Shown here: positions 6,112-35,216 of the stretch, in pieces | Layout of the letters: each line of letters opens with the position of its first letter | How positions within the stretch are numbered: the first letter of the stretch is position 1 | Notes under the pieces: model-generated | Told to the model about the DNA's origin: nothing | The model's database searches: none | What the model saw: the letters and a program-made list of their open reading frames with translations, nothing else | Position numbers and translations under genes: made by a program | Assembly: GCA_022824405.1 (NCBI GenBank) | Contig: JAJDZZ010000043.1 | Coordinates: 1-46,467, forward strand | Origin: Opitutales bacterium | GTDB taxonomy: Bacteria > Verrucomicrobiota > Verrucomicrobiia > Opitutales > UBA2995 | Reading direction: 5' to 3' | Length of the DNA stretch: 46,467 nucleotides

Positions 6112-6319
6112 CGCTTTTGGACTCTCGCAAAGAGCGCCAAGAAACGCCAAGAGGAAACCACAGAAGGCACAAAAAACTGAAAAAATTTTCTTGGACTAAC
6201 TCAGATTTCACTGATGAAGGCGCTGGAGGCGCCTCTTAGCGTTCTTAGCGAGCTTGGCGAGAGGAAATCCTGAAGGGACCAAAAGGCTCTCCACTCTGCA
6301 CTAACCACTCTCCACTAAA
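6112..6319. repeat. Spacer built of dispersed micro-repeat modules
   Basis: The spacer contains the CGCAAAG/CGCCAAGA module (from about 6122), the ACCACAGAAGGCACA module, a line resembling 'cagatttcactgatgaaggcg', an inverted CTTAGCG module (from 6237), and finally CTCCACT/CTAACCACT units that run directly into the start codon at 6320. No open frame or RNA gene is recognised. Confidence 0.85.
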
Positions 6320-7087
6320 ATGACCCGTTCCATCTTGATTCCAGCCCTCATCTGGTTGAGCCTCTCCGGGGTGGCCAGGACTGAAGCTCACGATTCCCGC
6401 GTGTATGAGTTGCGCACCTATTATGCCCAGGAGGGTAAACTGGAGGCGCTATTGGATCGGTTTGGCAACCACACCTGCCGGATTTTTGAAAAGCACGGCA
6501 TCGAAAATATCGGTTATTGGGTTCCGGAGAATAATCCCGACAACATTCTGATTTATTTCATCGCCTTTCCCAGTCGCCTCGACCGGGAATCGATGTGGAA
6601 GGCCTTTATAAACGATCCGGAGTGGAAAGCGGCCTACCAGGCTTCCACTGCAAAAGGAAAACTGGTCAAAAAAATCGATAGCCTGTTCCTGATGACAACG
6701 GACTACTCCATGCCGATAAAGCGGGTGCAATCCGAGCCGGAACGTTTATTCGAGTTGCGTACCTACAAGGCAGCAAAGGATAGGCTGCATCACCTTGATG
6801 CGCGTTTCAGAGACCATACCATCGACCTCTTTGCCAAACACGGCATGGAAAACCTGGTCTATTTCCATCCTTTGGCGGACCAGACAGGCGCCGCGGATAC
6901 CCTGATTTATGTTATTGCCCACAAGGACAAAGCGGCCCGTCAGGCATCCTTTGCCGCGTTCCGGGAAGATCCCGATTGGCGGAAGGCCCGGTCCAATTCG
7001 GAAGCAAGGGCCGGCGGCAGCCTCACCGTCAAGGGCGGCGTAACTTCTCAGCTTTTGCGCCCGACGTATTTTTCGCCCATGAAGTAA
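6320..7087 (+). CDS. Secreted NIPSNAP-family protein (two tandem domains)
   Basis: A signal peptide is followed by two dimeric alpha/beta-barrel-type NIPSNAP domains. Each starts with the family hallmark, VYELRTYYAQEGK at about residue 28 and LFELRTYKAAKD at about residue 140, and each has a matching KHG(I/M)EN-hydrophobic motif. The two halves are clearly a duplication. NIPSNAP proteins are ferredoxin-fold proteins without a settled activity in bacteria. Exported two-domain versions are frequent in Planctomycetes and Verrucomicrobia. The ATG abuts a repeat tract, and no ribosome binding site is visible. A repeat-bearing spacer separates it from the convergent DUF1080 gene. Confidence 0.9.
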   Translation: MTRSILIPALIWLSLSGVARTEAHDSRVYELRTYYAQEGKLEALLDRFGNHTCRIFEKHGIENIGYWVPENNPDNILIYFIAFPSRLDRESMWKAFINDPEWKAAYQASTAKGKLVKKIDSLFLMTTDYSMPIKRVQSEPERLFELRTYKAAKDRLHHLDARFRDHTIDLFAKHGMENLVYFHPLADQTGAADTLIYVIAHKDKAARQASFAAFREDPDWRKARSNSEARAGGSLTVKGGVTSQLLRPTYFSPMK

Positions 7088-18133: not shown

Positions 18134-18500
18134 AGACCCAAGTTTCCGGATGCTGGTTTCTTGGTCGAAATTTAACCACAGAGAGCACAGAGGCCACAGA
18201 GAGAAACCACGGATTACACGGATGAGCACGGATTAAAAAAGGAGGGGGGACATTCCTGCCCCCCTCCATGCCTTTCGAGAGAGGGACAAGAATGTCCCCC
18301 CTCCGTTAACTCCTGTTCCGGCGAAGCCGGATCCCTCAGCGATCTTGGCGATCTTTGCGAGAGTCATTATTTCATCCTGTAAATCCTGTTTATCCATGTT
18401 CAATTCCATTACCCCACTACTCCCTTCTCCCCAATTCCTATTTGGCGCCTCTTTTTAGTTGGTTTATGGTAGGGGAGTTGTTAACACAGGCGCCTTTTTC
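18134..18500. repeat. Repeat-rich spacer upstream of der
   Basis: No gene is recognised. Modules in order: AACCACAGAGAGCACAGAGG (from about 18173), CCACGGATTACACGGATGAG (from about 18207), the hairpin described at 18241-18304, CCTGTTCCGGCGAAGCCGGA (about 18313-18332), inverted CGATCTTGGCGATCTTTGCG (about 18340), and ATCCTGTAAATCCTGTTTAT (18374-18393). Two copies of GGCGCCT(C)TTTT follow, the second running into the der start. Confidence 0.85.
18241..18304. repeat. GC-rich hairpin element
   Basis: GGAGGGGGGACATTC (18241-18255) and GAATGTCCCCCCTCC (18290-18304) are perfect 15-base reverse complements around a loop of 34 bases. The left arm also pairs in part with the nearer tract CTGCCCCCCTCC, so two alternative folds exist. 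There is no U-tract, so it is not a standard terminator. Confidence 0.8.
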
Positions 18501-25477: not shown

Positions 25478-26083
25478 GGACTAACCACAGAGGGGAAAGG
25501 AAGAAGGAAGAAAAGGGGAGAAAGATGGACCACGGATTACACGGATAAGCACGGATGGGGGAGAGGGAGAAAAGGCTAAAGGTTGAAGGCTGAAGGCTGA
25601 ATAATCGTGATCGTGATCTTGATCGTGATCGAAGGGAACGGACTTGAGAGAGGACTCTCGCAAAGATCGCGAAGGACGCAAAGATAGGCGCCGATGGCGC
25701 CAATTTGGAATTAGGAATGAGGAATGAGGAATTGGGAATTGGGAGAAGAGAAACTAAAAACGGGAAGGCAAATTTCACTAACCACTAGCCACTAATGAAA
25801 CGAAGGCTGAATAATCGTGATCGTGATCGTGATCGAAAGAAGGCGGAGAGACTTTGGCGATTTTTGCGAGATTCCTCTTGCCCGCGATTGGCAGGTGGCG
25901 GCCAATCGGCTTTTCGCCGAAAACATCTGGACATTTTGTGTCTAAAAGGACACTGATATGCAGCCAGGGGAATGAGGGCGTGTTTCTTTCGCGATATGAA
26001 CTTTTGTGGGTCCTGCGGTTGGAGGGGTTTTCCGGGGAGGGTGCATTCAAATAGAGGAGCCTGCTTGAAATTTTGAAACTGGT
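25478..26083. repeat. Longest repeat-rich spacer, 606 bases
   Basis: No credible gene is seen. Modules in order: AACCACAGAGG; GGATTACACGGATAAGCACG (25533-25552); AAGGCTGAAGGCTGA (25586-25600); AATCGTGATCGTGATC with further GTGATC units (25603-25631); CTCTCGCAAAGATCGCGAAG (about 25655); GGCGCCGATGGCGCC (25688-25702); GGAATTAGGAATGAGGAATG (25707-25726); CTAACCACTAGCCACTAATG (25777-25796); a second GTGATC array (25813-25836); and an inverted CTTTGGCGATTTTTGCGAG. From about 25880 to 26083 the sequence is unique and holds no recognised feature. Confidence 0.88.
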
Positions 26084-27070: not shown

Positions 27071-27368
27071 ATTGAACATGGATAAACAGGATGGACAGGA
27101 TGAAGAATGGACTCTCGCAAAGGACGCAAAGGTATCCGGCTTCGCCGGAACAAGAATTAAATAAAACAACGCTTCGATTGATGCCTGCGGCAACGGGATG
27201 GCACAGAGGCGCGCCAATGAAGATTTAGGAATTAGGAATTAGATCTCGCCCTGGCGAGATCCCATTCCTTCTTCCTTCTTCCTTTCTCACCCTCTCTGTG
27301 TCCTCTGTGGTTTTTTATTATCCATGTCTCAGCGTTCTTAGCGATCTTTGCGAGAGTCCATTCCCCCG
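27071..27368. repeat. Repeat-rich convergent spacer
   Basis: Contains AACATGGATAAACAGGATGG (27077-27096, the inverted ATCCTGT module), CTCTCGCAAAGGACGCAAAG (27112-27131), ATCCGGCTTCGCCGGAACAA, the GC-rich ACAACGCTTCGATTGATGCC module with CTGCGGCAACGGGATGG, GGAATTAGGAATTAG, inverted CTCTGTGTCCTCTGTGG, and inverted CTTAGCGATCTTTGCGAGAG. It separates two convergent genes, and no classical terminator is visible. Confidence 0.87.
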
Positions 27369-32018: not shown

Positions 32019-32440
32019 CCTGGGAAGAGGGATCTCGCCAAGATCGCCAAGGACGCAAAGAGGTCCGGCTTCGCCGGAACAGGATCGCTACGCGGCTGGA
32101 TGCCTGCGGCAACAGAATGGCGCCCAGGCGCGCTGAGGTGCGCCAATGAGAAATTTTGTGTTTTTTGTGCGTTTTGCGGCTATTTTCTTATTTCCTGTTG
32201 GCACGGAGTGCCATCCTGTTGCCGCAGGCATCCAGCGAAGCGTTGTTTTAATTTAAATCCTGTTCATCCATGTTTTTCCTCAGAATCTCTGCGTCCTTTG
32301 CGACCTTGGCGAGAGTCCTTCCCTTTTTCCCGCTCAGAAACTCTGTGGTCTCTGAGGTTTTGTCTTATCCATGTCTCTGCGTTCTTGCGGGGTGCAATGA
32401 CCCCAGCGGGGCTTCTTTTTCTCGGGGATTGTCCAGAACG
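32019..32440. repeat. Repeat-rich spacer between pckG and metK
   Basis: No gene is seen. Modules: CTCGCCAAGATCGCCAAGG with GACGCAAAGAG (from about 32035), TCCGGCTTCGCCGGAACAGG (32064-32083), GGATGCCTGCGGCAACAGAA (from 32098), then its inverted copy (32210-32233), a hairpin GGCACGGAGTGCC (32200-32212), inverted CTTCGCTGGAT, AATCCTGTTCATCCATG, inverted CTTTGCGACCTTGGCGAGAG (32295-32314), and CTCTGTGGTCTCTGAGG. The last 60 bases carry the metK regulatory region. Confidence 0.87.
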
Positions 32441-32441
32441 C

Positions 32442-32470
32442 ATCAAGATATCGTGATATGTTGATATATT
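32442..32470 (+). promoter_or_regulatory. Palindromic operator and -10 candidate upstream of metK
   Basis: ATCAAGATATCGTGAT (32442-32457) is a 16-base palindrome with one mismatched pair. A further TTGATAT unit and a TATATT (-10-like, 32465-32470) follow, 39 bases before the metK start. The half-site TGATAT/ATATCA recurs. Palindromes of the ATCAA-GATAT type are reported for SahR-like ArsR regulators of the SAM cycle. The identity of the regulator here is inference. No SAM riboswitch fold was recognised. Confidence 0.5.
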
Positions 32471-32509
32471 GCTTGCAGTAAGGGGAATTTTCGCTCTTTT
32501 TTCCCTTTT

Positions 32510-33682
32510 ATGAGGAGTGACTATATCTTTTCATCGGAATCGGTGGGGGAAGGGCATCCGGACAAGGTGGCCGATTACATATCGGACATTGTTCTGGACG
32601 CGTGTTTGAAGGAAGATCGCGACAGCCGGGTGGCCTGCGAGACCCTGGTCAAATCCGATCGGGTAATCCTGGCCGGTGAGATAACGACGGAAGCTGCTCC
32701 CGATTACGAAGAGATTGTGCGGAAGGCCATTCGCGACATTGGTTACACCAATCACGATGATGTTTTTCACGCCGACAAAGTTACCATCTCAAACCTGCTG
32801 ACCCGTCAGTCCCCGGATATCGCCCAGGGGGTGGATTCGGTTGGCGCGGAGGGAAAAGGAACGGAAGAGCAGGGTGCCGGCGACCAGGGCATCATGTTCG
32901 GATATGCCTGTAGGGATACCCCCGAACTCATGCCGGCTCCGGTCATGTACTCCCATAAGTTGAGCCGGAAGTTGGCCGAAATTCGCCGCACCGGGGAAGG
33001 GAAATGGTTGCGCCCGGATAGCAAAACCCAGGTATCGCTAAATTATGAAGGGGATCGAGTAAAGTCCATAGCCGCGGTGGTGGTATCCACTCAACATACC
33101 GAAGAGGTTACCCATGATTTCATATACGGCTTCATCAAGGAAAAGGTCATAAGGCCCGTTTTGCCGGGCCATCTGTTGAACGGAAAGACGGACTTTCTGA
33201 TCAATCCGACGGGTCGCTTCGTGCAGGGTGGTCCCGGGGCCGATACCGGGCTGACCGGACGAAAGCTGATTGTGGATACCTATGGCGGATGGGGCCGACA
33301 CGGCGGGGGCGCGTTTTCCGGCAAGGACCCTTCCAAGGTGGACCGATCCGGCTCCTATATGATGCGTTGGGTGGCCAAGAACATCGTAGCGGCGGGTTTG
33401 GCCGATCGTGTGGAACTACAGGTGGCCTATGCCATTGGCCATCCCGATCCGGTCAGTTTGCGGGTGGATACCTTCGGGACTGGAAAAGTTTCGGACCAGG
33501 CCATTCGGAAGGCGGTGAAGAAAGCCTTCAGTTTCAAACCCGCCGATATCATCGATCAATTGGATTTACTGCGGCCAATCTATCATAAAACCACCAACTA
33601 CGGTCACTTCGGCAGAGCGGGCCTGCCCTGGGAAGCGGTCGATAAAACCGACGCAATTTTAAAGTGTATCAAAGGAAATTGA
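32510..33682 (+). CDS. metK: S-adenosylmethionine synthetase
   Basis: The 390-residue enzyme makes SAM from methionine and ATP. It carries [19 protein letters not shown] at the N-terminus, [36 protein letters not shown], and the ATP loop [20 protein letters not shown]. Length and order match the family. It is followed by ahcY with a single base between the TGA and the next ATG, so the two are translationally coupled and form a SAM-cycle operon. No gene lies within 490 bases upstream, so the promoter must be the AT-rich region at 32440-32470. Confidence 0.98.
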
Positions 33683-35000: not shown

Positions 35001-35120
35001 AGGCGCGCTGAGGCGCGCCAATTAGGAATGAGGAATTAGGAATGAGGAATTGGGGAGAGGCTGAAGGTGCTGAGATTAATCGTGATCGTGATCGTGATCG
35101 AAAAAACCTCTCGCCAAGAT
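35001..35120. repeat. Repeat tract downstream of ahcY
   Basis: Contains GGCGCGCTGAGGCGCGCC (35003-35020, hairpin-forming), GGAATGAGGAATTAGGAATG units, GGCTGAAGG, a GTGATC array (35078-35102), and CTCTCGCCAAGATCGCAAAG (from 35109). The array repeats the same modules as the 25.5 kb spacer in the same relative order. From about 35140 to 35216 the sequence is unique. Confidence 0.86.
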
Positions 35121-35216
35121 CGCAAAGCTCGCAAAGGTATCCGGGTTTCTGAGATAGGCGGCCAAATAGTTCTTGCCCAGGAAAGCTCCCCCCGTGTTGG
35201 ATGTCGGACCGCGATT

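Follow-up and report, generated by a model that had tools for sequence, protein, structure and literature searches.

What are the short near-tandem repeats that crowd the long spacers of the 46,467-nucleotide stretch of DNA analyzed here (the window), and where do they come from? The window is contig 42 of an Opitutales genome (G000; 3.39 Mb, 96% complete; GenBank contig JAJDZZ010000043.1), which was compared with a sister genome (G001). Repeats of this kind occur in many phyla and were earlier explained, where at all, as regulator sites. A reading of the spacer at 25478-26083 made from the letters alone (the sequence-only reading) had listed a set of micro-tandem units, which are present as described, and had ascribed these differing units to one copying mechanism, for example slippage or a reverse transcriptase. 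The common origin holds; the mechanism does not, at least for the nine-step modules. The shared rule comes from the ends of mobile elements. With a probability of about 0.85, the modules derive from two families of very small one-gene mobile elements (one of them measuring about 0.45 kb from end to end), either as their inverted terminal arms or as relics without a gene. Nine-step and some eight-step arms belong to elements that carry a GxxExxY gene, whereas elements with a gene for a four-helix protein (PF05635) have seven- or eight-step arms and, in a few cases, six-step ones.

GxxExxY genes between nine-step arms

In other taxa, the nine-step triplets occur as inverted pairs with their heads outward. 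Two such pairs in G192, spanning 438 and 447 bp, each enclose one small gene, and in a scan for open reading frames (ORFs) between the pairs of the fetched loci most ORF-bearing pairs span about 0.42-0.46 kb. Gene-bearing CACGGAT-pattern pairs 500-4,000 bp apart were not found, because the parent elements are shorter than that. Nine ORFs, hand-picked from about 50 listed, were submitted to a profile search and seven of them matched TIGR04256 'GxxExxY' (E 4e-33 to 2e-48), in genomes that include Bacteroidota, Planctomycetota and Verrucomicrobiota.

The reverse test was independent of the repeats: 30 GxxExxY loci were selected by PF13366 alone and their flanks were searched for inverted repeats (score ≥14, within 220 bp, displaced positions as controls). 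Such a repeat brackets 21 of the 30 genes, compared to 1 of 150 displaced controls, and the arms are mostly triplets of approximately 9-mers, each gene having a unit of its own. Tandem units are present in 21 of the 60 flanks, with period 9 in 15 and period 8 in 6; the control flanks for this count and for the corresponding four-helix count contain them in 6/83 and 8/86, respectively. Parents were likewise found for other nine-step families, namely CACAGAG in G192 and ACAGGAT in G258 and G056. One locus (L278; G257:C60, 812-1842) has a four-unit arm variant at both ends, 1,030 bp apart, around a methyltransferase-like ORF that is possibly cargo.

The GxxExxY protein, a match to the PF13366 family, has about 120 residues and shows a nuclease core in its predicted structure (mean pLDDT 95.3, from a four-sequence alignment). 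The best structural match is the Cas4 protein SSO0001 (Z 10.2, 98 residues, rmsd 3.2); Hjc resolvase is matched with Z 7.9 (84 residues, rmsd 2.9), and exonucleases and EcoRV rank below Hjc. Foldseek E-values are modest (best 5.5e-4), and the two proteins searched gave no sequence match among solved structures. In the alignment of the four named loci, E27, D66, K78, Q90 and Y94 are invariant and position 76 is E or D. The model thus assigns GxxExxY the fold of the PD-(D/E)XK nuclease superfamily with conserved acidic and lysine residues, and nuclease activity is predicted. An association between a DxK or ExK motif and the ending of the unit (6/8 vs. 4/29) emerged only after the fact, from a set in which 15 of 52 loci had been skipped, and carries no weight here.

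Four-helix genes between seven- and eight-step arms

The GxxExxY result prompted the guess that another small orphan family present in such genomes might have given rise to the 7-mers, and PF05635 was tested for this reason. An inverted repeat flanks PF05635 genes in 15 of 30 loci and in 0 of 150 controls, with arms of 7-8-mers. Tandem units occur in 38 of 60 flanks (period 7 in 29, period 8 in 6, period 9 in 2 and period 6 in 1), so that unit length goes with the protein family: 9 or 8 in 21/21 GxxExxY flanks, 7 in 29/38 four-helix flanks. Four proteins of G000 and G001 match PF05635 (23S_rRNA_IVP) with E-values of 1.6e-39 to 3.5e-20. Reading of their flanks places the four-helix copies of these genomes between protein-coding frames, not inside 23S rRNA. 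PF05635 is described as similar to the Avd protein of diversity-generating retroelements (PMC10053308).

Parents and mobility of the window's modules

G000 contains three PF13366 and ten PF05635 matches. A tblastn search with eight of these proteins revealed no copy in the window or in the 800-kb sample of G000 described below. For most of the window's module families, G000 or G001 contains a parent that carries a gene. Two GxxExxY genes on contig 92 of G000 are enclosed by GACTCTCGCAAAG-type (CGCAAAG) arms, and a truncated GxxExxY gene on contig 49 comes after a CACGGAT triplet. The arms of the four-helix genes correspond, variant by variant, to GGCACAAA, GGAAGAG, AAGGCTGA/GGAAGAA, GAGATGCT, GATTAA and GGAATTA, the last at genes of the sister genome G001. 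The polarity sense of each family was chosen after reading G000 and fixed before the tests in G001 and other taxa. With strict seeds, the same family stands '+' on the left and '-' on the right of 8 of 14 G000/G001 genes, and of most others by reading. Gene and arms form one unit, and the heads of the arms point outward. The modules of the spacer at 25478-26083 are as follows.

25485-25494, plus strand: single head unit ACCACAGAG of a CACAGAG-type nine-step module (sequence, seed scan), like the arm of a GxxExxY gene in G192 (L280).
25497-25512, plus strand: GGAAGAA seven-step module (seed scan), an arm of four-helix genes G000:C72:166876 and C89:32738.
25529-25556, plus strand: CACGGAT triplet ACCACGGAT-TA-CACGGAT-AAG-CACGGAT, of identical type to that just upstream of the truncated GxxExxY gene G000:C49:84740.
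25572-25601, plus strand: AAGGCTGA seven-step module (seed scan), an arm of four-helix gene G000:C89:32738.
25604-25631, plus strand: first copy of a GTGATC six-step module (seed scan), for which no parent gene was found in G000.
25653-25685, plus strand: CGCAAAG triplet with head GACTCTCGCAAAG, like the arms on both sides of the intact GxxExxY genes G000:C92:8068 and 10386.
25687-25744, plus strand: GGCGCC...GGCGCC hairpin head followed by a GGAATTA/GGAATGA seven-step module, like the arms on both sides of four-helix gene G001:C260:191.
25776-25797, plus strand: CACTAAC seven-step module (seed scan), no parent gene found.
25803-25839, plus strand: second AAGGCTGA unit, then the second GTGATC module (seed scan).
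25851-25874, minus strand: degenerate CGCCAAG/CGCAAAG module, the sole clear minus module of this spacer (by reading; single seed match at 25863-25871).

The arm most like the GTGATC module, a CGTAAT 6-mer, flanks a PF05635 gene of G186 (L347). Rfam and tRNA scans of the window gave no match.

Gene-bearing copies occupy different sites in the sister genomes. The two GxxExxY elements of contig 92 are near-identical from GGAATTGACTCTCGC to GCGAGAGGCCC and their flanks are unrelated; the orthologous G001 sites of both lack the gene and hold other modules and short runs of N, and the G001 homologue lies on another contig. Near-identical copies in G000, together with G001 sites that lack them, demonstrate mobility. 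Four of the ten four-helix matches of G000 fall at contig ends, as expected because near-identical copies break assemblies. On contig 92 (L351, 231-343; G000:C92 ~6230-6342), a repeat of ~95 bp has about twenty matches of 80-90% identity in G001. One GxxExxY copy (L391; G001:C197:5463-5884), without a right arm, lies between direct repeats of ~50 bases derived from the end of the upstream gene.

Protein and arm also change together. The elements at one site common to G153 and G184 differ in the protein (49% identity) and, with it, in both arms; identity is 87-89% at two G153/G184 sites with conserved elements. Between genomes, the correlation of protein and arm similarity (rho 0.165) was reached by 7 of 2000 permutations.

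Fixed triplets of the nine-step modules and the polarity rule

Spacers and genes were compared in 846 kb of G000 (800 kb plus the window), in which a purpose-made hexamer gene caller distinguished 89 kb of spacer from 750 kb of coding sequence. All 12 long spacers named by the sequence-only reading contain at least one module, the 45.6-kb spacer only a two-seed CTTTGTGCC. Three-unit arrays with a conserved 5-mer core and periods of 6/7/8/9 number 14/42/10/14 in spacers, with their peak at period 7, compared to 7/2/2/4 by the same criterion in coding sequence and 0.0/0.0/0.5/0.0 in order-1 Markov sequence. Arrays are far above Markov expectation and commoner in spacers than in genes. Similarly, spacers contain 9-mers such as AATTAGGAA 69 times, against an expected 1.6, while genes contain them 3 times; for the 9-mers overrepresented in spacers the gene counts are near expectation. 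The concentration in spacers is real, and the modules hardly ever enter a gene. Two modules at 35079-35136 fall within a gene called from 35067, the start codon of which is probably wrong. Longer exact arrays of 7- and 8-mers are also present, such as GGATGCT in nine and GGCACAAA in ten copies.

The units do differ in sequence, yet they are not mutually unrelated accidents, since each nine-step module is a fixed triplet of ~27 nt. The ACAGGAT family reads AACATGGAT-n-AACAGGAT-Gn-ACAGGAT in 7/7 arrays. CACGGAT arrays have exactly three units in 13 of 19 and more than three in none, and in 13 of 13 the first linker (TA/TT/TG/AA) is distinct from the second (GAG/AAG/GGG/AGG/GGA). Three is also the usual number in other taxa, with exactly three units in 157 of 220 arrays and four units in 4. 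Nine-step modules are copied whole, with position-specific linkers. Long tandem runs of whole CACGGAT triplet elements, as if the element had been duplicated, were seen in Planctomycetota and Muribaculaceae (L111, L117).

Both orientations occur, as had been stated, but orientation is not free: among G000 spacers with multi-unit modules of both signs, '+' lies left of '-' in 27 of 28 (reverse 1, mixed 0). The corresponding numbers are 42, 2 and 10 in G001 and 60, 6 and 6 in 113 loci of other taxa, and a same-family test, with one free bit per family, yielded 50 vs. 3 (mixed 1). The rule is independent of the orientation of the flanking genes, modules adjoining genes of every orientation, and family order is otherwise free (CGCAAAG vs. 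GGAATTA 18:18 in G000). Head-to-head instead of tail-to-tail pairs were observed in deltaproteobacterial loci L067, L099 and L126 and in genomes G191 and G203 of the window's phylum. Within the window, three further spacers illustrate the arrangement; all modules were located by seed scan.

18177-18236, plus strand: CACAGAG and CACGGAT triplets, left half of spacer 18134-18500.
18344-18400, minus strand: CGCCAAG/CGCAAAG and ACAGGAT/ACATGGAT modules, right half of spacer 18134-18500.
27076-27243, plus strand: ACATGGAT/ACAGGAT, CGCAAAG, CACAGAG and GGAATTA modules, left half of spacer 27071-27368.
27267-27355, minus strand: GGAAGAA, CACAGAG, ACATGGAT and CGCAAAG modules, right half of spacer 27071-27368.
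32036-32086, plus strand: CGCCAAG/CGCAAAG and ACAGGAT modules, left part of spacer 32019-32542.
32154-32375, minus strand: CACAAAA, ACAGGAT, ACATGGAT, CGCAAAG/CGCCAAG and CACAGAG modules, right part of spacer 32019-32542.

REP-like palindromes (GGAGGGGGGACATTCC..., GGCGGGTTTTCCAACCCGCC, TCCGGCTTCGCCGGA and GTAGGAGCGGCTTTACGCC-type) often stand between the '+' and '-' halves, at 18240-18330 of the window, on contig 72 of G000 and in other composite spacers.

The triplets are widespread. Contigs with ACCACGGATTACACGGAT belong, among the matches listed, to Verrucomicrobia, Bacteroidota, Planctomycetota, Chloroflexi, Acidobacteria, Deltaproteobacteria, Hydrogenedentota, Latescibacterota, Riflebacteria, Marinimicrobia, Calditrichaeota and others. 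Within the window's phylum, a looser pattern, CCACRGADNNCACRGAD, was matched in 168 of 288 genomes, with a maximum in G000 (277 matches), and its reversed control is nearly absent.

Comparison of module-rich and module-free genomes and alternative explanations

The 20 genomes with most matches were compared with 20 of the 120 without a match, hand-picked from the 288; some of the module-free genomes are small, making genome size a possible confounder. PF13366 is present in 19/20 module-rich and 5/20 module-free genomes (Fisher 1e-5), and two of these five carry other arms that the pattern would not detect, of ACAGGAT type in G056 (L304) and of CACGAAG type in G238 (L310). The corresponding numbers are 9/20 vs. 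9/20 for RVT_1, 18/20 vs. 15/20 for Y1_Tnp and 1/20 vs. 0/20 for Ku, and Ku-dependent end joining was set aside as a general cause.

Of the alternatives, the one that survives best, although we hold it to be unlikely, is that another enzyme, a transposase or recombinase acting in trans, moves the arms while the GxxExxY and four-helix genes are mere passengers. Most copies are indeed gene-less, pairs also enclose the methyltransferase of L278 (span 1,030) and two other ORFs (L281, L282), and the four-helix family has, to our knowledge, no known catalytic motif. A passenger would hardly explain that unit length goes with protein family, that protein and arm co-vary between genomes and at one common site, or that PF13366 separates module-rich from module-free genomes and Y1_Tnp does not; no systematic search for other transposases was made.

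A second alternative, that the modules are selected binding sites of global regulators or nucleoid proteins, as read in Geobacter metallireducens, is very improbable. The fixed triplet with free linkers and the paired arms would suit such sites, as would the similar paired sites in the accessible text of PMC2700814 and the locus-specific linkers that both arms have in common in G257. Yet module content is replaced between orthologous spacers: of 56 spacers compared between G000 and G001, with flanking matches averaging 89% identity, 16 have multi-unit modules in at least one genome, and no array was common to both in the alignments viewed, which cover part of these 16. In place of the block 25478-26026, G001 has ~130 unrelated bases. 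Neither the presence of modules beside every gene orientation nor the specific small genes between the arms fits regulator sites. On selection for base-pairing between arms the observations diverge: linkers within CACGGAT pairs of other taxa do not match (0.595 vs. 0.588), those in G257 mostly do, and in one gene-less pair, the arms changed together, differing between G257 and G026 and forming near-perfect inverted copies within each.

Synthesis of the arrays in place, by slippage, a reverse transcriptase or a telomerase-like enzyme, deserves almost no credence. Longer exact 7- and 8-mer arrays exist, which slippage may explain, and the polarity would suit 3'-end extension. A bacterial enzyme, DRT10, reportedly makes tandem repeats. 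For nine-step modules, exactly three units with position-specific linkers contradict such synthesis, and a slippage microsatellite is rejected because linkers are fixed by position (linker 1 equals linker 2 in 0/13 CACGGAT arrays). Nor do the enzymes fit, with no RVT_1 match in G000, nor in the next three module-richest genomes, equal RVT_1 frequencies overall and Ku confined to one of the 40 genomes. Whole-module copying and gene-bearing parents weaken the idea that spacers grow by 3'-end extension. Dispersal as REP/REPIN sequences by RAYT (Y1) transposases has an equally slight chance: palindromes do lie between the halves of several spacers and G000 has seven Y1_Tnp matches, but the module-rich genomes G257 and G192 have no match to Y1_Tnp (PF01797), its overall frequencies are close, and the micro-tandem arms enclose other genes.

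Several observations weigh against the two-element reading itself. PF05635 shows no clear separation between module-rich and module-free genomes (17/20 vs. 14/20), though a single 9-mer class is all that the pattern detects. The repeat score falls short of the threshold in nine of the 30 GxxExxY loci and 15 of the 30 four-helix loci, and no parent gene for the CACTAAC, CACAAAA and GTGATC modules was found in G000 or G001. No target-site duplication was established, orthologous spacers being wholly replaced. Heads face inward in 6 of 72 two-sign clusters of other taxa. Finally, composite spacers are not intact nests: in 11 of 89 the two innermost arms share a family (permutation mean 10.4), and 23 arm orders are mirrored to 18 crossed. 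Nesting alone therefore does not explain the polarity of orphan arms, and polarity without mirrored order leaves room for one-ended acquisition.

Proposed mechanism and relation to known systems

According to the two-element reading, the encoded protein would recognize its own array, several units offering several contacts, with which the weak co-variation of protein and arm is consistent. The GxxExxY protein might then cut DNA at the arm or the target, and the element would be copied in through repair. Gene-less arms could be mobilized in trans or left by deletion, and arms would pile up between genes because insertions within genes are lost. At roughly even odds, two unrelated proteins, the PD-(D/E)XK nuclease GxxExxY and the Avd/S23-like four-helix bundle, have each given rise to minimal mobile elements that lack a classical transposase. 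Each protein would read an array of its own units, three 9-mers or several 7-8-mers, and the ends and relics of the elements would make up much of the intergenic tandem repeat in many phyla that is otherwise unexplained.

The nearest known relative is the selfish intervening sequence (IVS) of 23S rRNA, which encodes an S23 protein and in Coxiella burnetii is ~0.43 kb long with one ORF and a 28-bp stem, according to the accessible part of PMC4990558. Both are small one-ORF S23/23S_rRNA_IVP (PF05635) elements with terminal inverted repeats, the arms here having ~27-35 nt. In contrast, the IVS sits within 23S rRNA and is excised by RNase III, whereas the present elements sit between protein genes, their arms are micro-tandem and come in many sequences within one genome, and many of their copies lack a gene; the same part of that paper does not mention tandem arms for the IVS.

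The paired tandem repeats of G. metallireducens (classes 1-4), described in the excerpted text as 'global regulator binding sites' (PMC2700814), resemble our modules in having three tandem TCTCCGTS[Y] units, approximately the reverse complement of CACAGAG/CACGGAG triplets, in opposite-strand pairs at variable distance. They differ in being read there as regulator sites, and that text draws no link to GxxExxY or four-helix genes. The intergenic TAACTGA heptamers, a single family near start codons (PMC4679880), likewise consist of dispersed 7-base tandem units, patchy across phyla; the part of the paper accessible to us puts forward no element or parent gene.

Like an insertion sequence or MITE, the present elements end in inverted repeats; the ORFs that these enclose match TIGR04256 or PF05635, although transposases were not surveyed in full. 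MITEs and REPINs are short, dispersed, gene-less inverted-repeat copies that need a partner enzyme; our gene-less copies are similar, but the partner would be a PD-(D/E)XK or four-helix protein. Cyanobacterial STRR heptamers are dispersed intergenic 7-base tandem repeats. PD-(D/E)XK homing endonucleases are small nuclease genes that spread with their own DNA; here, by contrast, no intron or intein host is involved and tandem-unit inverted arms enclose the gene.

In a literature search with subscription journals outside its range, the GxxExxY and PF05635 families were nearly absent, no paper combining most of a set of four-helix and repeat-element terms was found, and a sequence search gave no bacterial paper on these repeats among the matches listed. 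The accessible text of one paper merely names a GxxExxY gene beside a reverse transcriptase. Two tiny elements would offer a tentative function for two widespread protein families and predict the binding target of each protein. The source of much of the DNA between genes in these bacteria becomes testable, and a link arises to the old question of how S23-type intervening sequences entered rRNA genes.

Other repeats of the window

Two repeats lie apart from these modules. The very start of the contig (1-107) is a perfect 10-base tandem of ATACCTGTGT in 10.7 copies. At 2627-2791, a long inverted repeat, near-perfect and formed by AAAAGGGGTCAAACGTAGAAAATAGAATT and its complement, bounds the spacer; AAGGGGTCA itself is overrepresented in spacers, and this is possibly a further element family.
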